Below are positions 56,690 through 61,934 of a DNA stretch of 64,000 bases, piece by piece. The position numbers were made by a program, and so were the translations under genes. The stretch's first letter is position 1. Every line of letters begins with the position of its first letter. The notes below the pieces were generated by a model. That model searched no databases. It saw only the letters and a program-made list of their open reading frames with translations, and was not told the DNA's origin. The stretch covers positions 62,001-126,000 of the forward strand of contig WLXD01000002.1 in assembly GCA_012103255.1 (NCBI GenBank), given 5' to 3'. This DNA comes from Acidobacteriota bacterium. GTDB taxonomy: Bacteria; Acidobacteriota; UBA890; WLXD01.

Positions 56690-58019
56690 TCAGAAGCCCG
56701 GTAGATTTGCCCAGGGAGCATTTCTCCGGCCTTTCTTGTTGAGCTTCTTCATGAGTTTTCTGGACTGGGCAAAACGCTTCAATAGTCGGTTAACTTCCTG
56801 CACGCTCGTGCCGCTTCCGGCAGCGATGCGTTTGCGCCGGCTCCCATTGATGAGCTTGGGGTTGCGGCGCTCCACGAGCGTCATGGAATCGATGATCGCC
56901 TGAATTCTGGTGAGTTCGGCGTCATCTGGGGCCATCTGAGCCAAGCCTGGCGCCGAATTTGCCCCGGGCATCAACTCCATCAGCTTGGAGAGGGAGCCCA
57001 TCTTGCGAATCTGTTTGAGCTGGGACTGAAAGTCCTCAAGGGTAAGGTCGCCCCGCCGGGCTCTCTTTTCAAGCCCTTCTGCGTCTTCAACCGCAACTTG
57101 ATCCTGAACCTTTTCGATCAGGGTGAGGACGTCACCCATGCCCAGAATGCGTCCGGCGATGCGATCAGGGTGGAATACCTCAAAATCCCCGACCTTTTCA
57201 CCCACGCCCGCGAAGTAGATTGGCTTCCCAGTGACCGCAGCCACCGAAAGCGCCGCGCCACCACGCGAGTCACCGTCGAGCTTGGTGAGAATGTGCCCAT
57301 CCACGGGAAGGGCTTCCGCGAAAGCGGAGGCGGCCTGAACCGCATCCTGACCGACCATTGAATCGCATACGTAGAGAACGATCTCCGGGCTCACCGCGGC
57401 CGCCACCTGCTGGACCTCGGCCATCATCGCGGTCGATGTGCAGGCGCCCAGCCGTGTCCACCAGGACGACGTCGTCACCTCGACGGCGCGCCTCCTGAAC
57501 AGCATCCCGCGCTCTGACCACTGGATCATCGCTGTCAGAGGCCCATACGGGGAGCCCAGTCGATTCACCCAGCGTCGCGAGCTGCTCGCGGGCCGCGGGA
57601 CGGTGAACGTCCACGCTTACCAACATCGGCGAGCGACCTTGTCCACGGAGCATGTTGCCGAGCTTGCCGACCGTGGTCGTCTTCCCGGCGCCCTGCAAAC
57701 CGACGATCAGGACAACGTGTGGGGCGGGTCCGGAGAAGCGAAGATCCTGGCGTTCTCCGCCGAGAACGGCCACCAGCTCCTCGTTGACGATCTTGATGAC
57801 CTGCTGGCCCGGCGTAAGCGACCGCGCGACTTCCTCGCCGAGCGCCTTCTCCTTTACTGCGGCAAGGAAGTCCTTGACGACGCCAAAGTGGACGTCAGCT
57901 TCGAGTAGCGCCAGTCGCAACTCCCGCGCGACTTCGCCAAAACTAGCTTCGTCGACCTTCGCACTGCCACGGAGCTTGCGCAGCGTGGTCTGAAGTCTGC
58001 CGGTGAGCTGCTCAAACAT
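56690..58019 (-). pseudogene. ffh: ffh, signal recognition particle GTPase, interrupted by a frameshift
   Basis: Ffh (SRP54) binds signal peptides and 4.5S RNA for membrane targeting. From ATG 58019 the frame gives the N and G domains: GLQGAGKTTTVGKLGNML, DVHRPAARE and DTAGRLHID (to residue 196, base 57432). Then only 4 bases (CGCG, 57431-57428) stand where the family has two codons before MMAEVQQV, which continues in the next frame and runs through TKLDGDSRGGAALS, GVGEKVGDFE and a complete M domain (RIAAGSGTSVQEVNRLLKRF, in part) to 56690. Both halves are well conserved, and the region between them is 443 codons long, so the break is a +1/-2 shift: recent mutation, sequencing error or recoding. 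No slippery heptamer is visible. ftsY downstream is intact. Confidence 0.9.
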
Positions 58020-61043: not shown

Positions 61044-61934
61044 CTACTTCGTCGCGATTCCCAGCAGGCCGTGAACGTACTCCGTCGCGTCGAACGACGC
61101 CAGATCTGTATCACCCTCGCCGGTACCGACGAAGTGAATAGGCAGGCCAACCTGCCGAGCGATCGTCAGCGCCACGCCGCCGCGCGCCGTTCCGTCGAGC
61201 TTGGTAAGAATGATGCCCGTCACGCCGGCCGAGCGCAGAAACTCTTCCGCCTGCCGCAGACCGTTCTGTCCGGTGGTGCCATCGAGAACTAGCAAGACTT
61301 CGTGTGGTGCATCCGGGATGACCTTCTGAGTCACCCGTCGGATCTTCTCCAACTCTTGCATGAGGTTGCCCTGCGTATGCAGCCGGCCCGCTGTATCAAT
61401 GAGAATCCTGTCGACGCCACGCGCGAGCCCTGCCTGACACGCATCGAAGGCGACGGCAGCCGGGTCGCCGCCGTCATCCTGTGCGACCAACTCGACGCCG
61501 ACGCGATCCGCCCACATTCGTAGTTGATCCACCGCGGCCGCGCGGAACGTGTCTGCAGCCGCGAGCAGAACTCTCTCGCCGCCGGCCGAATGGAAGCGCG
61601 CCAATTTCGCCACACTCGTGGTCTTACCCGATCCGTTCACGCCGACCACAAGAACGACACGGGGGCCACTCACTTCCGGGGGAGTCGTTTCAACATCCGA
61701 CAGCATGGCGACCATTTCAGCCGCCAGCGCGGGAACCGCTTCCGAGTCGGAGGCACGCTCGACTACGGCGATGAGCGCGGCTGTCGTGGTCGGGCCGACG
61801 TCTGCCGCGAGCAGAGCGGCCTCTAGTTCCTCGATTGTCTCGGAGTCGGGGCGGCGCCCCGGTACCAGAGCCGAGAGCGCCCCACTGAGTCGATCGCGAC
61901 TCCGGGACAGGGCCCGCAGAAATCTGTTCGCCAA
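61044..61934 (-). CDS. ftsY: Signal recognition particle receptor FtsY
   Basis: FtsY docks SRP-ribosome complexes at the membrane. The 296-residue product has the N and G domains: VVGVNGSGKTTSVAKLARF, ADTFRAAAVDQLRMW, DTAGRLHTQGNLMQEL, TKLDGTARGGVALT and GTGEGDTDLASFDATEYV. The N-terminus lacks the long acidic A domain of Escherichia coli, as in many phyla. It starts with TTG 15 bases after the TPR gene stop. It lies upstream of ffh, its partner, which is frameshifted. Confidence 0.95.
   Translation of the reverse strand: MANRFLRALSRSRDRLSGALSALVPGRRPDSETIEELEAALLAADVGPTTTAALIAVVERASDSEAVPALAAEMVAMLSDVETTPPEVSGPRVVLVVGVNGSGKTTSVAKLARFHSAGGERVLLAAADTFRAAAVDQLRMWADRVGVELVAQDDGGDPAAVAFDACQAGLARGVDRILIDTAGRLHTQGNLMQELEKIRRVTQKVIPDAPHEVLLVLDGTTGQNGLRQAEEFLRSAGVTGIILTKLDGTARGGVALTIARQVGLPIHFVGTGEGDTDLASFDATEYVHGLLGIATK

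Follow-up and report, generated by a model that had tools for sequence, protein, structure and literature searches.

The only ffh gene in this genome carries a frame break in the deposited sequence, and this break is probably a consensus-sequence error. Directly observed are the break itself, intact copies of the gene in relatives, a single copy in this genome, the absence of decay, and a background of other frame breaks in the same assembly. We infer that the deletion is missing from the organism's own DNA. Two bases would have been lost within ffh in a contiguous 9-contig draft with about 11 gene-breaking indels per Mb, and in the cell ffh would run unbroken over about 443 codons, as it ordinarily does.

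The ffh junction and the gene in relatives

ffh spans 58019-56690 on the minus strand of the window (the whole stretch of 64,000 nucleotides that was analyzed), where the domains of Ffh (SRP54_N, SRP54 G domain, and SRP_SPB M domain by Pfam) occur in order but over two frames rather than one, with the frame change at 57428-57431 (Table 1). The upstream frame holds the first 196 codons, to 57432, covering the N domain plus the first half of the G domain, with DTAGRLHID as the last residues; past the junction, the sequence in this frame is no longer homologous and reaches a stop at 57270. The +1 frame, read from GCG at 57430, begins AMMAEVQQV and supplies the second half of the G domain, followed by the M domain up to a normal stop. 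Accordingly, the junction cuts the Pfam SRP54 profile (PF00448): the upstream frame matches profile positions 1-99, and the downstream frame matches 98-196. Read along the minus strand, the junction is CTG CAC ATC GAC, then CGCG, then ATG ATG GCC GAG GTC CAG (GAC at 57434-57432, CGCG at 57431-57428, ATGATG at 57427-57422), and the four bases CGCG stand where relatives have the two codons GAG GCG (six bases). A full-length homologue aligned to ffh without gaps over 443 codons apart from the two missing bases, which shows that the break is not due to chance. The original prediction had placed a frameshift in ffh at 57422-57434, with 4 bases in place of two family codons; the translations, the Pfam cut, and the congener alignment confirm the break and this exact interval, and CGCG against GAG GCG bears out the base count.

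Table 1. Positions in the window of the two parts of ffh, the junction between them, and ftsY.
Feature	Position	Strand	Basis
ffh, N-terminal part	57432..58019	minus	own-frame translation; Pfam SRP54_N and SRP54 profile positions 1-99
junction CGCG	57428..57431	minus	congener alignment; invariant DTAGR-GQD spacing
ffh, C-terminal part	56690..57430	minus	+1-frame translation; Pfam SRP54 profile 98-196 and SRP_SPB
ftsY (SRP receptor)	61044..61934	minus	intact frame; Pfam and genome protein match

Possible start codons in the downstream frame raise the idea that Ffh truly consists of two cooperating proteins here, the second started at GTG 57568 or ATG 57427. However, the GTPase domain would be severed between DTAGR and TKLD, the first fragment would carry 53 non-homologous codons at its end, and the split is seen in no relative. 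With the GTPase fold interrupted by the cut and no ribosome-binding site ahead of the junction ATG, two pieces are unlikely to make a working Ffh, and we give this arrangement very little credence.

We found a full-length ffh match without a stop in 53 of the 59 other genomes searched, a phylum-level sample that includes two members of the same genus (G001 and G002); in the other six, the match was absent, partial, or to FtsY only. In the two congeners, ffh is 83-84% identical, forms one 443-codon frame, and is unbroken at the junction (GTC GAC GAG GCG ATG ATG). A search of named genomes returned distant homologues among the matches listed, the best at 55-56% identity. An uninterrupted frame in a relative, which the original prediction held would make the break an assembly error, was therefore encountered 53 times. 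In all 41 relatives that gave a sensible pattern value, 36 residues separate DTAGR from GQD. Because a 36-residue spacing here requires two missing bases, the loss of two bases is a more economical reading than the gain of one, and on this comparison a 2-base deletion is the preferred description of the lesion.

Possible recoding at the junction

Another reading is that ribosomes shift +1 or -2 at GAC-CGC and produce full-length Ffh by recoding. This would fit the conservation and order of both halves and the lack of a back-up ffh, and a -2 shift would restore the family length exactly (D-T-A-M-M); a +1 shift, by contrast, would leave the protein a residue short of every relative measured. The original prediction had seen no slippery heptamer or clear stimulatory structure, and this held up when codons, motifs, and folding were checked. 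GAC CGC GAT contains no slippery sequence and no slow or stop codon: its codons are common, with no repeat that would allow re-pairing, and CGC itself is used at 33 per 1000, so the A site offers neither a stop nor a rare codon. No stimulator was found at the junction, either as a Shine-Dalgarno-like sequence upstream or as a structure, with downstream RNA folding no better than shuffles (z = 0.48). The site is also not conserved, as the frame is uninterrupted in both congeners and in 51 further genomes, and the many unrelated breaks elsewhere in the genome share no evident motif.

Known programmed frameshifts include those of dnaX (-1), prfB (+1), and phage Mu gpG-GT (-2), and programmed -2 shifts are very rare. 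As in these systems, two overlapping frames of ffh jointly encode one conserved protein. Unlike them, ffh has no slippery site, stop or hungry codon, Shine-Dalgarno stimulator, or structure, and its site is not conserved in relatives. Our literature search for a frameshifted ffh returned nothing relevant. Recoding at GAC-CGC is not supported by these results, and we consider it very improbable; it is slightly harder still to credit an unconventional -2 or +1 shift that yields full-length Ffh where none of the known signals is present. A real break that ribosomes read through would amount to a recoded essential targeting GTPase without a known signal.

A single ffh without decay

The genome (4.81 Mb, 9 contigs, 95% complete) contains SRP54-type GTPase matches to ffh and FtsY only. 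We found no second ffh in it, and the M domain was counted once. A good, intact copy of 4.5S RNA is present. Loss of the SRP pathway was considered and rejected, as both 4.5S RNA and FtsY are intact; together with the lack of a second ffh, this indicates that the pathway is in use, so that a true null would come as a surprise. Purifying selection acts on each half of ffh, without acceleration (dN of about 0.1 vs dS of at least 1). Amino acid changes unique to the lineage numbered 21 here vs 25 in G001 and 21 vs 18 in G002, showing no excess, and decay of ffh was rejected on these relative-rate counts and on dN/dS. The same results, with the gap-free alignment, agree with the earlier view that the sequence flanking the break is conserved and free of other lesions. 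With a single ffh, intact SRP partners, and purifying selection, either the gene in the cell is whole or the lesion is very young.

A very young lesion would be a genuine 2-base deletion, carried by the sequenced cells or by a minority strain, that leaves ffh non-functional, with the loss tolerated or the allele unfixed. ffh is essential in most bacteria. The gene's lack of decay elsewhere is what a very recent event would leave, and several other breaks in the assembly are exact tandem duplications resembling true slippage. On the other side, Ffh is single-copy here and normally essential, and FtsY, 4.5S RNA, and the rest of ffh are all intact. Loss of Ffh can be survived by some bacteria, for example Streptococcus mutans (PMC8546722). 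Given that ffh is usually essential, though its loss is survivable in S. mutans, an error is likelier than a real lesion, and we judge a genuine recent deletion to be unlikely, if less so than either recoding or a two-piece protein.

Frame breaks across the assembly

Using a hexamer coding model trained on 800 kb of this genome, we performed a Viterbi gene-frame search that permits intragenic frame changes, scoring each junction against the alternative of two ordinary neighboring genes. At a strict threshold (a gain of 12 nats or more, 150 or more bases on either side, and 15 or more bases to the nearest stops), this resulted in 22 strong intragenic breaks in 2.0 Mb of this genome, including ffh, vs none in 0.58 Mb of G001 and G002, an elevated background of the kind expected from assembly or consensus indel error. 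At this genome's rate, 6.4 breaks would be expected in the 0.58 Mb of the congeners (p of about 0.002 by our Poisson estimate). Several thresholds were tried and the contrast with the congeners depends on strict settings: at the laxest threshold listed, which admits gene overlaps, there were 25 per Mb here vs 10 per Mb in the congeners. The strict rate of about 11 per Mb extrapolates to about 50 breaks genome-wide. Assuming 0.3 Mb of essential coding sequence, about 3 essential genes would be hit if errors are spread uniformly, so the break in ffh needs no special explanation. Judged by the proteins of relatives, only ffh and one DUF3047 gene were clearly broken among roughly 200 matched genes, and the assembly is thus not grossly poor. 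Within positions 1-64000 of the window, the scan gave no strong intragenic break other than ffh, its remaining junctions being gene ends or overlaps.

The breaks differ in kind. At least two, at C1:495291 and C1:467050 (positions on contigs C1 and C2), resemble G5 read as G4. Runs of exactly six G or C occur at 101 per Mb here vs 147-157 per Mb in the congeners at equal GC; this scarcity of about a third possibly reflects mild homopolymer compression, although it is suggestive only. Four other breaks are exact tandem duplications, of 7 bases (C1:131583), 8 bases (C2:951380), 16 bases (C1:702652), and 23 bases (C1:825492). Such duplications are typical of real replication slippage and unlike ordinary homopolymer errors; these four may reflect true slippage or have been introduced by the assembler. 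Some of the breaks may therefore mark genuine pseudogenes among the accessory genes, and the background is probably a mixture of consensus errors and true lesions.

Gene-breaking indels are known from long-read assemblies (PMC12007338). The pattern here is alike in that small indels fall in conserved genes, many unrelated genes are hit, some indels lie at short G runs, and relatives are intact. It differs in that some breaks are tandem duplications; as a counterpoint to an error in ffh itself, the 2-base loss lies outside any homopolymer. The original prediction, weighing a recent lesion, an assembly indel, and recoding, had held error or recoding to be likelier than decay. Error is supported by the intact relatives, the single ffh, the lack of decay, and the high background. 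Recoding is not supported, as the junction has no slippery site, slow codon, stop, or structure, the site is missing from both congeners, and keeping the protein length would take a -2 shift. More generally, an essential gene that looks broken in a single assembly says little in favor of recoding until that assembly's own background of frame breaks has been measured; here, this background accounts for the break.

Beyond the window, contigs C1 (1-960000) and C2 (1-1040000) of this genome carry about 20 more intragenic frame breaks. An apparent break near C2:136500, suggested by congener proteins, was a false alarm from the overlapping frames of rplM and rpsI. At several breaks, a Pfam domain continues from one side to the other (Cys_Met_Meta_PP, 2-97 and 103-380; ACR_tran, 1-180 and 184-474; DUF885, 16-272 and 321-532; Sulfatase, 1-185 and 200-301; MacB_PCD, 3-86 and 98-205). 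The broken genes include those for a Cys/Met-metabolism PLP enzyme (C1:495291), RND efflux (C1:675913 and C2:413670), a sulfatase (C1:567381), a molybdenum hydroxylase (C1:131583), and several MacB/FtsX-type permeases.
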